Assembly (NCBI GenBank): GCA_964036195.1
Contig: OZ038454.1
Location: 2,666,001 to 2,730,000, forward strand
DNA length: 64,000 bases
Direction of reading: 5' to 3'
DNA from: Sphaerolaimus hirsutus
Lineage: Eukaryota; Nematoda; Chromadorea; Monhysterida; Sphaerolaimidae
A program made the translations under genes and the position numbers. Under the pieces are notes generated by a model. It made no database searches and was not told where the DNA came from. It was given only the letters and a program-made list of their open reading frames with translations. Positions 23,820-62,297 of this stretch are shown here, one piece after another; position 1 is the stretch's first letter; each line of letters starts with the position of its first letter.

Positions 23820-24589
23820 ATCTGTGCTACTGTAAGTGTATTCCCGGATCAACATACCCAATTCTCGATTACCTGTGTAAACAATGTCCCCGTGATTGCA
23901 TGGGTATTCAACATTTGTCCCATCTAATCCGAATTATGTAAGGCTTTATGTGACTATTCATCGGACTAGTAACACTCTTCACATAGGTTTTAGCTCAATC
24001 ACTATACTGAGCTTATTCCTTGCAGTTTTGTTTAAGCAAGGTCAAAGGACCCTGTGAAGTGTAAAGTTAAGTAATAAACATCATCCAAAATTTCATAAAT
24101 ACAACTTTGTTAAGTGTCATGCGAAATGTCAAAAGTTCAATTAAATTTTTTTTCCTTTTTATTTTGATTGACAGTTTACATCACATTTACTTGTTGACAT
24201 TTGAAACTTGTTTTTACGGGGTGTGGCATCACTTTCTGAAGCCATTCCAACAATGGCAATCCAAAATTTGAAACCTCAAAACCTGTGTTCAAAAGAGACC
24301 AGCAAAACTCGAAACTGCAATATCCTAGTAGAAAATCCCAAAAAAATTGAAAACTTCATTTGAAAATTTGAAAATTATTTTTGGGGAAAAACAACTAAAT
24401 TCCAACAGTAATTTTTTTTAAACAGCTAAAAATTTTTTAGCACTTTTTACAGATGGTTTGCTATGCTTAGCCCAATAACCCAGCTTTAAAATATCAAGAC
24501 AAAAAGAACAAAAGTAGCTGGTGTTGACTTATATCTTGCGCCAAAAATAAAAATCATAGCAGTGCATTAGCATGGCTGCATATATGAGA
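23820..24589. other. Intergenic with CAGTCCC-type relic
   Basis: About 24050-24228 has GACCCTGTGAAGTGTAAAG, GTCATGCGAAATGTCAAAA and TTACGGGGTGTGGC, a decayed CAGTCCC-family copy. The rest shows no gene. Confidence 0.4.
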
Positions 24590-24805
24590 AGCAAAATTTT
24601 TTGGCGCTGGCGCTATTGGCGCTTGGCGCCAACATCCTCTGGCGCCATTGGCGCTTGGCGCCGTGGTCTAGAAAAGCGCCATGGCGCTTTTGGCGCTTGG
24701 CGCCATTTTGCTCTGGCGCCATTGGCGCTTGGCGCTGGGGTACGGAAAAGCGCCAGGGCGCTTTTGGCGCTTGGCGCCAAAGTCCTGGCGCTTTTTCCAT
24801 CACTA
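24590..24805. mobile_element. GGCGCC-rich hAT MITE
   Basis: The right end GCGCTTTTTCCATCACTA is intact and the left end is lost in GCAAAATTTTTTGGCGCTGG. Three GGCGCCATTGGCGCTTGGCGC repeats are read in tandem. The long Ala/Leu/Trp frames are artefacts. Confidence 0.75.
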
Positions 24806-24926
24806 CCCAGGACTCATCAGTTTGGAGGTCACAAGGTGCAAAATACTCAAAAAGTACCCAAAATACCTCCAACGTCCACGAAAATACTCAACAACACGAA
24901 CCTGGCCCACCTGTCCACCGCGTCCC

Positions 24927-25043
24927 CTCACTGGAGGGCTGTTTGAATCCATACGTGGCCTCTTGAAGCTCTGTCGACGGTTCGTGCCCCTTGACTGCCC
25001 GAAATTCGCAGCACCCCTGCGCCCGCCAAAATTTGGTCTATAC
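24927..25043 (+). pseudogene. Possible Ty3/gypsy reverse-transcriptase connection fragment
   Basis: In one plus frame about 38 codons read LFESIRGLLKLCRRFVPLDC followed by PKFAAPL. This resembles the conserved tail of Ty3/gypsy reverse transcriptase, where a leucine-rich GLxxYYRRFIP stretch is followed by AAPL before the RNase H domain. The block is GC-richer than its surroundings and abuts a GGCGCC MITE. No RT catalytic YxDD, RNase H, integrase or LTR is seen, so at best it is a small dead remnant. Chance similarity is possible. Confidence 0.35.
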
Positions 25044-25746
25044 GCATTTTCGACTAGTTTCCCATATTTTAACTCATTTTCTTCCTTTTTTCCCTTAAGA
25101 ACCTATATAAAAGATGATATAAAATACGTTTTCTGTACTCGATTACTTTCAAAAAGTATACGTAAAAGCGAGTGCCAGAACTTTTTCGGAGGAAACGTAA
25201 ACGTATTTACTCTGTACTCGAGTATACGTATTTATCGAGTAAAAGTAAATACGTTTTAACATTGTTGTAAACCAGTGTATGCAGGTAACCTAGCATCGTG
25301 AACCCGCACCCAGTCAAACAAAAAAATGATCCCCTTTCTATGAAAATAATCATTCAGAGAAAAATCAACTGTTTTTACGGCGTACCCACTGAAAAAATGT
25401 ACCCAAATATAAGACACAATGTAACAAAATTGAGACACTAGAAAAACGACAAACGCTTTTATTTTATGCGTACCGGAAATTCCGCCATTCGTGACCGGAA
25501 TATGATGAAGCCACAATGCTAAAAATAAAAATCTCGAACACAGACAATATTTTGACAGTGTTTGCAACGTTGAAAATTCACAGGAAGTGCCTTTTCAGTT
25601 GTTGCTATGCTAAATTTGTGACTAAAAGACTAGACCCAGCTAATTTCAATTTTTGCAACGCGACAAAAATGCGTCTTTTATTCCGATAAATAGTGGTGGA
25701 AATTGAAATCGCGTCAAATTCCTTTAAGTTGTTTTTATGTCGTGAC
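25044..25746. other. Intergenic, partly CAGAGTTGTTAAAA-like
   Basis: About 25130-25265 contains TACTCGATTACTTTC, GTAAACGTATTTACTC and TTTTAACATTGTTG, a relic of the CAGAGTTGTTAAAA family. A minus-strand frame at 25256-25567 has a hydrophobic stretch but no ATG at its start. Confidence 0.35.
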
Positions 25747-36004: not shown

Positions 36005-36576
36005 TAATTTCACCCTGAAAGGCACAAATTGAATACATCGCTTTTTAGGAAAAAATGGATCACCGTGCAATAATGGGTGATGTTTGCAGAAAGTGCATAA
36101 AGGTGTCATTACCTCCGATTTTACAGTGTGTATGTCAAAATTTGGCAATCATTAAATGGTTTTCTCTGATCAAATAGGATTACTGTAGTATTTTGTACCA
36201 GTGTGAATTTTTGTCCTTGTGTCACCTTTTTCCTGATTTTTCCAAGTTTTTTTTTCTCTGTAAAAATCAATTTACCTTTTTCGCTGTGAGATTTTCTAGC
36301 CATAATACCTCAGGCTTTTTCGCATTCAATAAATGGTTCAATAAAAGTGCAATTTCGCCACTTTTTCGGGGGGTGATTCAATTCCGTCACATATTGCTAT
36401 ACATTTTTTCCATTCGAAAAGTGGACTTTTTTTTCGTAGAAATGTGGCAGAAATATTGGAGTCTTTGACAAGTATTTTTTGGGGGTAGGATTCTTTATAA
36501 GCTATCAACAGTGAAGTAAATATAAGTTGGAAGCCGCCTGGAAATTTTTGAACTCGTGCGGAAAACTTGTCCACGT
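36005..36576. other. Intergenic, no gene seen
   Basis: AT-rich, unassigned. No splice-supported frame was found. Confidence 0.35.
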
Positions 36577-36672
36577 TAGTGGTGGAAAAGCGCCAGAAAA
36601 AAGGCGCCAAGCGCCAACGACTCCATGGTGCGGTGTCGTTTGGCGCCCTCCAATGGCGCCATTCCCTCTCTA
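36577..36672. mobile_element. GGCGCC hAT MITE, short
   Basis: TTAGTGGTGGAAAAGCGCCA to GGCGCCATTCCCTCTCTA. The flanks GTCCACGT and GTCTGCGT match at six of eight bases, so the TSD is old. Confidence 0.6.
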
Positions 36673-36944
36673 GTCTGCGTTTGACGCGTAGTGATCGGAA
36701 AAATTGAGACAATGTCGTCTGGCTCAGTTCTAATTTTGGACAGACATTTAAGAGAAAATTTTAAGAGAAAAAAGAGAAATAAAAAAATTTAAGAGAAAAT
36801 TTTCAAAACCAAACAAATTCAAGTACAATTTCATGCATAAACACATAAACAGTCGCTTCTACACGCATCCGTGATGTATTTTTTGATAGATTTACCATTT
36901 CGAGGCGTGTACTTGCGTTTGACACGATCTGAAACTGAGCCCTG

Positions 36945-39670: not shown

Positions 39671-39680
39671 CACATTGTAT

Positions 39681-40250
39681 GAGCCTGTGCCTCTCCGAAT
39701 GTATACCCGCCCCGAATGTATACCCGCCCCAAATGGAAGCATGCCCGCTCCGAAGGTAAACCCGGCCCGAAGGTAACTGATGCTACCTTCGGGCCGGGCT
39801 TACCTTCGGAGCGGGTATACATTCGGACCGGGTATTCATTCGGGCCGGGTTGGAGATTAGCGGAGGGGGGGGGGCACGACTGGCGGCGCGTGTGCACCCA
39901 TCGGCGCGGTGCGGCAAACACAAAGGGCAAATAACAATACATTCTTTAGGCCTTTTTTGTTTTGCCGCCAAGACCGCAACTGATGTTTGATGTATGATGC
40001 GTGACCCCCCCCCCCCCCCGGTTCGGCATGCGATTTGGTGCCTTTCCGAGCAACATTTGTGCAACATTTAATCTGATTGACATTTTACACAAATGAAACA
40101 ATGCATTCTGATGGTGCTGACGATGGGGTGAAAAAATGCATTTCATTGTATCATTTGTGTACTTATTTCCGTATACTCTAGTTGGAAATTGGTCCACCAT
40201 TAGACCCCGAAACCAATTTCTGATACTGATTCCGATGATGAAATAAGTTC
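39681..40250 (+). repeat. MULE left terminal inverted repeat
   Basis: Starts with two direct CCGAATGTATACCCGCC units, then CCGCTCCGAAGGTAAACCCGG. A small perfect palindrome follows, built on CCGAAGGTAACTGATGCTACC. The same units then come back inverted. Further in is a C19-like run at about 40007 and ATTAGACCCCGAAACCAATT at the inner edge. Confidence 0.9.
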
Positions 40251-41136
40251 ATTCAAAAATTCAGAAATTCATTGGAGATTAGCGGGCCGGTGTATTGATT
40301 TATGAATGTGAGTATGGCGGTCATCGATTCCCCCCCCCCCCCCGCAGCTCACATCAAAAAGAAGCGCCAACAATACACAAAAAGAAGAGATGGCTGGCTG
40401 GACAATGGCTCAGTAAACTGGGAAAATGAGCTATGTTCAGATAAATTTTCAATTTTTGCATAGTGATAACAATGTAAAATAATCGATACACATTTTCCCT
40501 CCCAGATAGCCACATGAAACACCATTTACAATGCCCGAGCTGTATGATAATGGTCAAGCATTTGGTAAGTGTTGATATTAATTTGAATTTATGATTTTGC
40601 ACTGCTAATTACATAATTACCCACTCCCCAAGTGCTGGCAACTATGTATCTTTAATTGCAAGCAATTAAGAGATTACTGCGCCGGCAGTTCGCGGCTCAC
40701 AATTAAATACAAAATTGTTTCACATAATCCCCCCAAAAAGCCAATTATCTGTAAGTTAATTAGCGCCAGCCGCGAACTGGTGGCGTAATAATTACTTAAT
40801 TGCCCAGCTCCAGCTTGCGCAAGCCGCGAACTGCGCTCGCGCTGATTACGTAATTGCGCGTGGCGCGGCTACCGGCTTTGAAGCCGGAAATGGGCAATCA
40901 CATTGCACAGCGCAATGCAATATTCCAGTGGTTTAAACGTCAGGGGTTTGTGCCAAAAATCATCATTCTGGCACAATCCCCCCACTTCATTTCTATCCTA
41001 CACTATTCAGTAGTTGCCTACCCAACTTTTGTCAATTGTTCATGTGTTGAAAACACATTAACAGTTGACAAAACTTGTGTTGTCAACTACTGTGCTTCAT
41101 TACCTAAACTCAATTGTTTACTCTGCTACTTTACAG
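40251..41136. promoter_or_regulatory. MULE 5' region with palindromic GC-rich words
   Basis: No gene is supported. From 40610 to 40870 the words AGCCGCGAACTG, CAGTTCGCGGCT and TAATTACTTAATTGC recur in both orientations, giving several potential hairpins upstream of the transposase. It could be the promoter/5' UTR of the transposase or an inserted MITE. Nothing in the sequence decides between them. Confidence 0.4.
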
Positions 41137-41354
41137 ATGGCGGCTGACTTTGGGCCAACCGTTACCGCTGAGTGTCCTCAAGGCGTCACGCGCAACCGCA
41201 AGGGTGTGCAATTGTACTATCGATCTGTTGCACACCCCGGTCACGTTTACAAGTTTTTTGTCAATGGAAAGGAGGACAGAAAAGGGAACAGGTATTGGGC
41301 CTGCGGTAACTGTACAAAGATCAGAGACAACCACCGGCCCCTTGTGAGAGTCAA
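41137..41354 (+). CDS. MULE transposase exon 1 (FLYWCH part 1)
   Basis: ATG directly after TTTACAG. Encodes MAADFGPTVTAE through RYWACGNCTK. The donor GTATGT is in phase 2. Confidence 0.8.
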
Positions 41355-41609
41355 GTATGTTGTCATTTCATTCATTTTTCTGTTTTTTTTTTCTTGGACA
41401 GTGTGTTACTTGGACAATTGACATTTCAAAAGTGTGACATTTGTATGTTTTATTGTTGCTTTATATTCCACAGTAAAAATGTGGATATCTGGTTCAGGTA
41501 GTAGAGTTGGGTTTCAGTATAAAAGATGTTAGGGTATTTGGTATTGGGTCAGGTTCCCAACCCTAGTATTTATATACACTTCCCAACCCTAGTATTCTCA
41601 TATTTGCAG

Positions 41610-41720
41610 TGCTGGGCGGTGGATTAGCAATCCGGACAAACCCCGCAAGCCGCACATCTGTACAAATCATGGCGCGGGAACGTTCACACCAGCTATGATG
41701 TATGCAGAGCAGTCGATGAG
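41610..41720 (+). CDS. MULE transposase exon 2 (FLYWCH part 2)
   Basis: The acceptor TATTTGCAG gives AGRWISNPDKPRKPHICTNH. The donor is GTTAAT in phase 2. Confidence 0.75.
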
Positions 41721-41740
41721 GTTAATGGTGTCCTTTTTTG

Positions 41741-41955
41741 GGTATATTTACTCCTCATTTTGGGTATCATTTTCAACTGCTAGTTTTCATCATTTTTGTG
41801 AAAACGATATGAATTAGCAGTTGAAATTGTAAACCGAAATTGAAATTTTGTACAGATTTCAATTTCGGGTTTCAATTTCAACTGCTAATTCATGTCGTTT
41901 TCACAAAAATGATGAAAACTAGCAGTTGAAAATGATACCCAAAATGAGTTGAAAT
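41741..41955. repeat. Palindromic insertion in MULE intron 2
   Basis: TTTTGGGTATCATTTTCAAC to GTTGAAAATGATACCCAAAA with long inverted arms containing CTAGTTTTCATCATTTTTGT. AAATTGAAATT/AATTTCAATTTC words are iterated to about 42030. Confidence 0.7.
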
Positions 41956-42133
41956 TCAATTTCGGGTATCAATTTCGGTTGAAATAGAGATCCGAAATTG
42001 AAATTATGTATCAGATTGAATTTCGGGTTTCAATGTTCATGACACTTTGCATAACAAATTGTCAAATGTGTATGACATTTTGCAACGCCTTGAAATAACA
42101 CCTTGTACACTTTGCAGGTCGGCTTTGTGTCAG

Positions 42134-42344
42134 GCTGAGTCCAGCCATGGCATCACATGTGCCAGTGCGGGAAATGTACGATGGAGCGTGCCGCAAAGTG
42201 GCTGATGATGTGCCTCTAGAGGAGCAGGAAAATGCGCGGGAGGTAATGCGAACCTACAACAGCATGCGCAGCAACTTTCAGCGCGCCGCCTTGAAGTCCA
42301 TTCCACAGTTCACCTCTGTCGTTGGAATTCCCCATCATTTGAAG
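42134..42344 (+). CDS. MULE transposase exon 3
   Basis: Uses the acceptor TTTGTGTCAG. The AG 17 bases upstream (TTTGCAG) would break the frame. Encodes a helical DVPLEEQENAREVMRTYN segment and ends TSVVGIPHHLK in phase 0. Confidence 0.75.
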
Positions 42345-42440
42345 GTGACTTTGGCTGTCAGATTTTTGAAGTTAACATTTTGCAAACATTTTACATGGCA
42401 TTTTTACAAACATTTTACATGCCATTTTCTAATATTTGAG

Positions 42441-42570
42441 TACTGTATTTCCTCGAAATACCCCCCTTGAATTAACCCTCCCCTCTAAATACCCCCAGAT
42501 GTTTTTGAGCTGAGAAAATAAAACAATTCCCCCCTCGAATAAGCCCCCCCTCAAAATCCCCCCTCAGAAT
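42441..42570. repeat. TACCGTA-family left end in MULE intron 3
   Basis: GTACTGTATTTCCTCGAAAT followed by CCTTGAATTAACCC and CTCGAATAAGCCCCC words. No inverted partner is found, so it is truncated. Confidence 0.6.
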
Positions 42571-42612
42571 TTCTTCTATTATTATTACTGATTCATATTT
42601 TTTTTCTTGTAG

Positions 42613-42822
42613 TTCATGCACTGCGAGAGACTCAGGTGGGATAAGGATCACCTGAGCGATGCTGATTTGGATCCAGCCGAGCTGTTTGTTATTCACAGCA
42701 ACGAGGACGACATCCGACCGATGGTGCTGCTGCAGACAAAGCAAATGGCGCAGCACATGCACCGCGCCACTGACCTTGTCTGCGACGGCAGCTTCCAGTA
42801 TTCCCCGTCTAATTTTTATCAG
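42613..42822 (+). CDS. MULE transposase exon 4 (first catalytic Asp)
   Basis: The acceptor TTTTCTTGTAG is followed by 70 codons ending DLVCDGSFQYSPSNFYQ. The next codons before a stop (VHFHVLVLTV) weakly resemble the QlytIH continuation of MULE domains, so the exon may originally have run further. Confidence 0.8.
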
Positions 42823-43138
42823 GTACATTTTCATGTTCTGGTTCTCACTGTGTTCCCATCTTTTTCACCATAGTTGTTAAAATGCATTAACGTCTACACA
42901 ATGAGTCTCAACGATGAGCGATGACACAACGCATTGCTGACAAGTCTACCGAGACGTACACGGAAGTGTTTCAATGGTTTCGGGTATGTTTGGGTGGGTG
43001 CAATTTTGGGTGGGTGCGCTCTGGTTTGAATGGTTGTTGTTTTTGTTGGTGGGTGCCTGTTTTTGAATGGCGCCATAGTGCTTTTCCATCACTAGTGAGT
43101 ACTATTCCCAACGCTACTCAACTCCATAAACAATGCAG

Positions 43139-43351
43139 GACAACATAGTGCTACACTGCGGCGACGCGGGTAGAATGGCGCAGGCAGCGTGGCACTTTGA
43201 CTTTGAGCTGAGTGCCATCAACGGTGCCGCGCAAGTGTTTGGCAACGCGTTGACAGTGTTTTGCTGCGTTTTTCACTACTGTAATGTAATAGTGAAAAAC
43301 CTGCATACGCGCGGTTTGCTGCACCGGTACACCGGTGATCAGTTTGTGTAA
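43139..43351 (+). CDS. MULE transposase exon 6 (second Asp and CxxH)
   Basis: The acceptor CAATGCAG is followed by DNIVLHCGDAG, FDFELSAINGAAQVF, CCVFHYCNVIVKNLH and a stop after HRYTGDQFV. The stop overlaps the flank of a 60-bp GGCGCC MITE. Confidence 0.8.
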   Translation, partial: DNIVLHCGDAGRMAQAAWHFDFELSAINGAAQVFGNALTVFCCVFHYCNVIVKNLHTRGLLHRYTGDQFV

Positions 43352-43352
43352 C

Positions 43353-43412
43353 TAGTGATGGAAAAACCGCCATGGCAATGGTGCCAAATTAATGGCGTTT
43401 TTTCCACCACTA
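43353..43412. mobile_element. 60-bp GGCGCC-type MITE, first of a duplicated pair
   Basis: TAGTGATGGAAAAACCGCCA to GCGTTTTTTCCACCACTA. The flanking GGTGATCAGTTT...GTAAC and GTTTC(C)TGTC sequences are repeated with the second copy at 43474-43533, so MITE plus flank were tandemly duplicated. Confidence 0.75.
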
Positions 43413-43473
43413 GTTTCCTGTCGTTTTGTAGTGTAGTGTAGTTCAGTTACATTTTGGTGATCAGTTTTGTAAC

Positions 43474-43533
43474 TAGTGATGAAAAAAGCGCCATGGCGCT
43501 GGTGCCAAATTAATGGCGTTTTTTCCAACACTA
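43474..43533. mobile_element. 60-bp GGCGCC-type MITE, second of a duplicated pair
   Basis: TAGTGATGAAAAAAGCGCCA to GCGTTTTTTCCAACACTA. Identical centre (TGGTGCCAAATTAATGGCG) to the copy 121 bp upstream. Confidence 0.75.
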
Positions 43534-43897
43534 GTTTCTGTCATTTTGCTTGCAGTTTTTCTAACCTGTTTTGCTATTGTTTGTTTTTTGCTGTTGTTCT
43601 TGTGAGAACAATTTTTCTATTATTGTACAACTATTGTATCAACTATACTATTGTTCCAGCTATTGTTCTAATATTTTAGTGCTACCCACACTATTTGTAA
43701 TAAATCAACTAATAAATAAAAACAATAATCACATTCTGAAATCTGGCTACAAACAATTCATAATTGCATGTGACTGCATTCTCATAATAATTTATCAATA
43801 ATCGAGTGTCCCCGCAGTTAGTTGCACTGTTGTTTTTCTTTGTCATGCCGCCACAGCATAAAATCCATGACACTGAAAAACACACTGCTTTCGGAAC

Positions 43898-44467
43898 TTT
43901 TTTCATCATTGGAATCAGTATCAGAAATTGGTTTCGGGGTCTAATGGTGGACCAATTTCCAACTAGAGTATACGGAAATAAGTACACAAATGATACAATG
44001 AAATGCATTTTTTCACCCCATCGTCAGCACCATCAGAATGCATTGTTTCATTTGTGTAAAATGTCAATCAGATTAAATGTTGCACAAATGTTGCTCGGAA
44101 AGGCAAATCGCATGCCGAACCGGGGGGGGGTGGGGGGGGGGGGGTCACGCATCATACATCAAACATCAGTTGCGGTCTTGGCGGCAAAACAAAAAAGGCC
44201 TAAAGAATGTATTGTTATTTGCCCTTTGTGTTTGCCGCACCGCGCCGATGGGTGCACACGCGCCGCCAGTCGTGCCCCCCCCCCTCCGCTAATCTCCAAC
44301 CCGGCCCGAATGAATACCCGGTCCGAATGTATACCCGCTCCGAAGGTAAGCCCGGCCCGAAGGTAGCATCAGTTACCTTCGGGCCGGGTTTACCTTCGGA
44401 GCGGCATGCTTCCATTCGGTGCGGGTATACATTCGGGGCGGGTATACATTCGGAATGAGCCTTGGTC
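43898..44467 (-). repeat. MULE right terminal inverted repeat
   Basis: Reverse complement of 39681-40250. It has a longer interrupted G run near 44123 and a few substitutions. It ends GGAATGAGCCTTGGTC before the second ACATTGTAT. Confidence 0.9.
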
Positions 44468-44536
44468 ACATTGTATACATAAATACTGGTATTTATTTAA
44501 TGTTTTACACCAAAATTTACATAAATAGTTGCCAAG

Positions 44537-61370: not shown

Positions 61371-62114
61371 AATGATGCCATAAAAGTTTTTGCCTGTATA
61401 TACCTTCGCCGGTGTCTGTGCAAATGGTTTTACATATGCAAATGGAAAACACATTTGAGTAAAGTCACTAATCCGGCGATTACGGTAGCGGGAAAATCGC
61501 GCAATGAACTCGGACGATAAATAAAATAAATATTAGGGCCCAACGCGAGCGGACGAACACAATGGAAGTGATTTCCGTTGCGAAAAAGTGGATGTGATCA
61601 ACGATCGGACATCAATCATCGATCATATGCCACTTTATTGTCACTTTAAATAAGTGATGTAAAATCAAAATGTTTAAATAATCCACCAGAGGGTATAATT
61701 TACCGTGCGATGAACGATTTTAATGTGGAGGTTTTGAAAATGGGGACATTTTGTAAATTTTTTTCCGGATGCATAAAAATGCTTTTACAAATTGAAAACA
61801 TGTTTTAGCATGCACATGACTGTATCGACTGCTTTAAAACGAAAATTTTTATAAAAGTAAATCGTTCAAATTTGATCAAATTGCTTATATACCGCAGTTT
61901 GTTTATTCACTGCCCCAATTTTACACTTTTTCGCATAAACAAGCCATTTTTCTGCGCTGTGAAAACAACACGGAAACAAACGCGCATTCGCAGATAGAAA
62001 TCAAAAATGCTACCATACAGATAGACATGTCAAATGGGGGGGGGGGGGGCAATTTCACCTTCTTGTATATTCCGCGGGCAGCACCCTTTACATGCACATA
62101 TTTTTATGTTTTAA
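61371..62114. other. Intergenic, no gene seen
   Basis: Unique AT-rich sequence with a G13 run near 62037. A 10-codon ATG frame at 61561 is too short to support. Confidence 0.35.
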
Positions 62115-62297
62115 AAAGTGATGTAAAAGTGCCATGGCGCTGGCGCCTGGCACTACGCCAGAGCCAAAAGCAACATGGTGCTTCCAGTGCTTGGCGCTAT
62201 TTATCCATGGTGCCCATTGGCACTTAGTGCTGAGGTGCAGAATTACCATGGTGCTATTGGTGCTTGGCACCAAACCCCTGGTACTCTTTACATCATT
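62115..62297. repeat. GGCGCC MITE, degraded by CpG loss
   Basis: AAGTGATGTAAAAGTGCCAT to GTACTCTTTACATCATTGG. Many GCGCC units have become GTGCC or GCACC (TGGTGCTTGG, TTGGCACC), the pattern expected from CpG to TpG decay. Confidence 0.7.

Follow-up and report, generated by a model that had tools for sequence, protein, structure and literature searches.

Positions 39681-44467 of the window, which is the 64,000-nucleotide stretch of Sphaerolaimus hirsutus contig OZ038454.1 analysed here, are occupied by a Mutator-like element (MULE) of 4787 bp. The element is real and well formed; it is of the Mutator/Foldback type, a known kind, and its transposase gene is dead. We consider it very probable that this is a cut-and-paste DNA transposon which keeps a broken remnant of its transposase, whose short copies were moved in trans and whose inverted arms were copied within the element.

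Ends, copies and target site duplications

The element is flanked by a perfect 9-bp target site duplication, ACATTGTAT, with the left copy at 39672-39680 and the right copy at 44468-44476 (no strand assigned). This duplication and the GA-starting termini had been reported in a first-pass annotation of the window, and both were seen again in the sequence. Further copies, for which that annotation had proposed to search, do exist. The left arm was used as a query against the 348-Mb assembly, with 40 of the 249 first-look candidates scored. It gave at least 128 matches, which were grouped by hand into at least 39 loci including the window. The sequences of 20 of the 38 other loci were examined. 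Both ends were present in 16 of them, giving 17 two-ended copies with the window element, and the one-ended L052, L056, L057 and L062 were left out of this set.

Perfect 9-bp duplications were found in 14 of the 17 two-ended copies, the window included, and the duplicated 9-mers vary from copy to copy. L044 has a 9-bp duplication with a single mismatch. Duplications of 8 or 10 bp were found in 0 of the 17 copies. When flank pairings were shuffled between copies, 0 matches were obtained in 10,000 trials, which indicates that the 14 observed duplications are beyond chance. For each of the 14 copies with a perfect duplication, the flanks were also joined, with one 9-bp copy kept, and used to search the genome for empty sites (best 40 of 5260 first-look candidates scored). 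For L061, 150 of 150 joined bases were found uninterrupted at 99%, about 31 kb off on the same contig. For L049, which lies in an interspersed repeat, 39 listed members cross the junction uninterrupted at 94-99%. Empty counterparts were thus found for two of the 14 tested copies, and none among the matches listed for the other 12, for which too few were scored to count against them. The 14 perfect duplications of 9 bp and the two empty sites agree with the target duplication of 8-11 bp that marks MULEs.

The alignment of the 17 two-ended copies gave a left terminal 13-mer, GAGCCTGTGCCTC (39681-39693, plus strand), and a right terminal 13-mer, GACCAAGGCTCAT (44455-44467, minus strand). The left 13-mer shows zero base differences among the 17 copies, with one extra C in L044, and the right 13-mer has a mean between-copy difference of 6.9%. 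The mean difference between left and right is 61%. In the window element the outermost 13 bases of one end differ from those of the other at 8/13 positions, and the inverted repeat therefore starts at element base 14. In each of the 17 copies, one end has the left 13-mer and the other end the right. Inward of base 14 there are 17-bp modules of type CCGAATGTATACCCGC in both orientations, six of them within the first 170 bp of the left arm, and the right arm has the same module layout. These are the composite arms of short tandem modules by which Foldback-type elements such as Tm1 are recognised. Outer ends that do not match each other (GGGCAATG vs GAC...) are also seen beside the long arms of the more distant relatives L037 and L038, with duplications of 9-11 bp read by eye. 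The arm of the sister element L031 is related, though diverged (58-59% identity), and carries its own modules; a search for the terminal duplication of L031 gave no convincing pair.

Transposase gene, its class and the short copies

Six coding exons are readable between the arms, all on the plus strand and with GT/AG borders at all of them as placed, in line with the intron-rich transposase described earlier. The first coding exon (41137-41354, MAADFG..., ends set by eye and splice dinucleotides checked) carries the first half of a C-x2-C finger. The second half, H-x-C, lies at 41610-41720, and an exon at 42134-42344, with a putative acceptor chosen by frame, stands between the finger and the catalytic core. 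The first catalytic Asp (CDGSF) is encoded at 42613-42822. The second (HFDFE) is encoded at 43139-43351 together with C-x2-H (CVFH), in an exon that runs into a stop, with the following exons missing. Exon 6, at 42874-42983, is broken. Compared with the sister gene of L031, it hits a stop, its frame is changed and some of its length is lost. The concatenated window protein holds a few intron residues before exon 4, and the motifs are unaffected by them.

Relatives sharing some of the window exons were found at 11 distant loci of the genome (L031-L041). The nearest are L031 (C9), with 68% identity over the first-Asp exon and 63% over the second-Asp exon, and L033 (C6), with 63% over the first-Asp exon. 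D242-G-x-F, D312-x-E314 and C334-x-F-H337 are invariant in 8/8 aligned proteins; these are the DGSF, FDFE and CCVFH motifs that had already been picked out in the window. A further exon with GPRTTN(A/N)AES, which probably carries the third catalytic residue, is present in nine of the 11 relative loci and is not shown by L033 and L041. This exon and the other C-terminal exons were absent from the whole window at E < 0.06 in a search that did recover a positive control exon. With the third-residue exon of L031 as query, 9 further genome matches were obtained at 49-63%, none of them in the window element. The lost C-terminus noted earlier was thus borne out. Because exon 6 is broken and the C-terminal exons are missing, no complete enzyme can be produced from the window gene. 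The transposase exons used as queries occur once each in the assembly.

The Mutator core is defined by D, D, C-x2-H and a final E. We take D, D and the final E of the aligned family proteins to be the catalytic residues. The D-D-E core and C-x2-H are present as motifs in the relatives, and the window has D, D and C-x2-H only. The DDE motif is mentioned in excerpts of PMC6446971 and PMC13359780. Pfam profiles were searched to a limit of E=10, with HMMER filters discarding most matches above 0.1. The MULE model (PF10551) matched four of eight family members, with a best E of 9.2e-4. Three trimmed relative cores matched it at E 1.5e-4, 7.8e-4 and 7.9e-4, below the curated cut-off. L042, the sole place in the genome above that cut-off, shares none of the window exons (tblastn, E 0.1). 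The only matches of the window protein were below threshold, to DUF5816 (E 0.093) and RYYR-CCHC (E 0.11). The MULE assignment is therefore made on the shared motifs and the sub-threshold matches of the relatives. The first-pass annotation had called it firm; the motifs and the weak matches of the relatives uphold the class, and firm is too strong a word for window exons that match neither MULE nor FLYWCH. A profile search for relatives of solved structure gave two chance-level matches only.

The finger ligands are C-x2-C...H-x-C, and the finger is closed by H-x-C in 9/9 loci where that exon was read, the window included. Four of the six finger segments read, those of the window, L032, L034 and L035, had RYYR-CCHC (PF23674) as their best match, at E 0.0016 to 0.14 and below the cut-off. 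The FLYWCH model (PF04500) had no match in the window protein or its relatives. A FLYWCH finger, as claimed at first, is therefore not supported by these tests; the model does work in the genome, where it matches 14 other places. The Pfam comparison that had been proposed for the exons thus came back empty for FLYWCH as for MULE. This transposase lineage is poorly covered by current Pfam models. A literature search found no paper with the term RYYR-CCHC. Nine of the 14 FLYWCH-model matches cluster within 37 kb (G000:C15:12474792-12511747), and copy L055 (C15:12479213-12480156) sits inside this cluster.

The other 16 two-ended copies measure 923-1597 bp. In these, blastn (E 1e-3) found none of the six window exons and tblastn gave chance-level pieces only. 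Since these copies are without any exon and an enzyme of their own is impossible, they were mobilised in trans. The short copies (0.9-1.6 kb) would be internal-deletion derivatives of the window element or of its sister element. A transposase acting in trans, which the first-pass annotation had invoked for the window copy, is thus needed for the short copies; the gene of the window copy could have broken after insertion. A palindromic unit of the 205-bp type (41754-41976, no strand assigned) lies in a transposase intron and was found in 13 of the 16 short copies, being missing from L043-L045. Tandem Repeats Finder detects it as an array in nine of the 16, where a unit of 188-206 bp is repeated about 1.9 to 3.5 times. 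The one-ended L056, L057 and L062 stop at 200-base N runs inside such arrays, which suggests that the assembly breaks at them. In L056, its own 9-bp flank is seen again directly past the N run. L052 is without a left end and runs into other sequence inside its array. Another transposase intron of the window holds a repeat of the form ATTTCCTCGAAATACCCCC (42445-42575), and similar stretches occur in introns or flanks of L031, L032 and L038 and beside copy L059.

Inverted arms and interior

The left arm of the inverted repeat covers 39694-40250 (plus strand, from element base 14) and the right arm 43894-44454 (minus strand). The long terminal inverted repeats expected of a MULE are present, save for the outermost 13 bp. 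The earlier description of near-identical repeats of about 570 bp therefore stands for the arms and fails for these 13 bp, which are not inverted. Divergence within and between copies was compared, as the first-pass annotation had proposed. Over bases 14-183, the two window arms differ at 2/169 sites plus 1 gap column. Over bases 184-570, they differ at 2/378 sites plus 11 gap columns, 8 of which fall in a C run. Over the latter bases, comparison of the two window arms with the long arm of L043 gives 10/380 and 12/383 differing sites, and comparison with the long arm of L045 gives 28/340 and 29/337. The window arms resemble one another more closely than they resemble the long arm of L043, L044 or L045, which suggests copying between arms within the element.

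L043, L044 and L045 each have one short arm, of about 184 bp, which is joined to the interior at TTGGAGATTAGCGG. The diverged copy L046 has the same join by BLAST coordinates. In the window, the extra ~420 bp of the left arm are bordered on either side by TTGGAGATTAGCGG, with the first copy at 39850-39863 and the second at 40272-40285, where short-armed copies join the interior (both plus strand). Most likely, the left arm was once shorter, at about 184 bp, and the ~570-bp arms result from copying of the right arm onto it. The left arm would have been lengthened from the right one by repair at the 14-bp repeat. Near-identical arms of ~570 bp that seem to be copies made within the element do not date its transposition, and the recent transposition once read from their low divergence loses this footing.

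The interior is not fixed relative to the ends. The left 13-mer of L043 and L044 is joined to what is the right-side interior of the window element, and vice versa; L045 has the window arrangement. With respect to their unlike ends, the gene of L037 runs one way and that of L038 the other. Crossing-over between the arms would flip the interior against the ends in this way.

As a mechanism, we propose a multi-exon transposase in which a CCHC-type finger precedes a D-D-E core with C-x2-H. It would bind to the 17-bp arm modules and would cut at the two distinct terminal 13-mers. The element would then be joined to a 9-bp staggered cut. The window copy retains a broken gene remnant, with exon 6 disrupted and the exons that probably hold the third residue gone.

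Alternative readings and known systems

Several observations weigh against a trans-mobilised Mutator/Foldback-type element with copied arms. Genome searches with the window exons found no intact transposase of the exact window lineage, which is the full-length gene that the first-pass annotation had hoped to recover, and L033, one of the two nearest relatives, is also without the third-residue exon. The window exons and protein pieces have no match to PF10551. L051 (C4:11414500-11417500) and L053 (C323:1-3000) have both conserved ends and unrelated flanking 9-mers with no duplication; we suggest that they are either recombinant copies or assembly joins. The joined flanks of the window copy matched only their own two halves, and no empty counterpart was found in the assembly. 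With respect to arm copying, right-arm bases 571-667, beyond the repeat, are equal in the window and L043 at 96/96 sites, so these two elements are not far apart. The array-bearing short copies have left arms of 261 bp, so the left arm may instead have been longer in the ancestor and shortened repeatedly.

The near-identical arms could instead reflect a recent insertion from a parent with homogenised long arms that is not seen in the assembly. The perfect duplication, the few differences between the arms, the single-copy transposase exons and the same identity to L043 all fit this. However, the other 16 two-ended copies show differences of 2.6-9.5% between their own arms, 13 of them with perfect duplications, and some exons are already gone from the window gene. 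Arm identity is thus a poor clock here, and we regard recent insertion as a possible but doubtful explanation. The case for recent transposition is built on arm identity, and the evidence for homogenisation within the element weakens it. Single-copy, partly open exons would also suit a domesticated host gene inside an old element, and with exon 6 broken and a catalytic exon missing we hold this to be highly improbable.

A further alternative is a canonical Phantom element, a recently transposed Mutator with a FLYWCH finger. Phantom MULEs are animal elements with 8-10 bp duplications and arms of 18-613 bp (PMC6446971), and the window element resembles them in its animal host, 9-bp duplication, long arms and MULE-like motifs. 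Tm1, which its authors put in the Phantom subclass, has the same end layout and a finger without the last His (PMC3169594). Table 1 of PMC6446971 lists the Phantom finger as FLYWCH, SWIM or none, and together with PMC13359780 this source gives the range of MULE arms and fingers. The window differs in its finger. PF04500 matched neither the window nor its relatives while working elsewhere in the genome, and the H-x-C closure was constant in every locus read. We therefore think a canonical Phantom element unlikely.

A more novel variant of the Mutator/Foldback reading, that this is a MULE lineage in which a CCHC-type finger replaces FLYWCH and the two ends are functionally different, is put forward tentatively. 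The two-ends part is based on the 17 copies, which keep one left and one right 13-mer while arms recombine and interiors are flipped (L043 and L044 vs the window; L037 vs L038). If true, the ends would act as a left/right recognition pair, as in asymmetric transposons, and the family would offer a test of left and right end roles in Mutator elements. It is a family where ends, arms and interior evolve separately. It also warns against dating transposition by the near-identity of inverted repeats.

In architecture, the nearest element described so far is Tm1 of the root-knot nematodes. Tm1, a Mutator/Foldback element of Meloidogyne, has asymmetric 7-bp outer motifs, modules of about 14 bp and 9-bp duplications, and its transposase is Phantom-like, with a FLYWCH domain lacking the last His and a match to the MULE model at 9e-13 (PMC3169594). 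The likeness covers the 9-bp duplications, the short asymmetric motifs outside the inverted repeat, the arms of short tandem modules (~14 bp in Tm1 vs 17 bp here) and the presence of copies like miniature inverted-repeat transposable elements alongside a transposase copy. Unlike Tm1, there is no FLYWCH match here and the MULE matches are weak and limited to the relatives. The motif strings, as quoted in PMC3169594, look unlike the window ends by eye, and both module orientations occur within one arm here, a feature that the excerpts of that paper do not mention for Tm1. According to the same source, non-inverted ends are known from other Mutator-like elements.

Tetris of Drosophila virilis is also of the Foldback type, with 8-10 bp duplications, non-autonomous copies and tandem repeats of about 220 bp (PMC4079207). 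Its repeats are in the arms, whereas the palindromic units of ~205 bp here lie between the arms, one of them in a transposase intron. Rehavkus shares a 9-bp duplication, arms of 26-400 bp and a minisatellite, and differs by a PHD finger (PMC6446971); no PHD model was among the Pfam matches here.

Other searches gave little. An Rfam search of the window had no match, and phage records had none for the element DNA or for one relative's protein. Relatives in viral contigs were also considered, and 23 pattern-matching stretches yielded 0 confirmed. Elsewhere in the window, 24560-25259, 36338-36760 and 61838-62227 are long stop-free stretches with similar GC-rich motifs (ALLALGA and WRLAP types) and are probably one repeat family rather than genes. 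The first-pass annotation had called the genome animal-like, and COX1 reads through with the invertebrate mitochondrial code, which marks the source as an animal. Locus L063 carries COX1, then atp6 (by eye), and ends in repeated AT-rich blocks, with an apparent nad1 upstream on the opposite strand.

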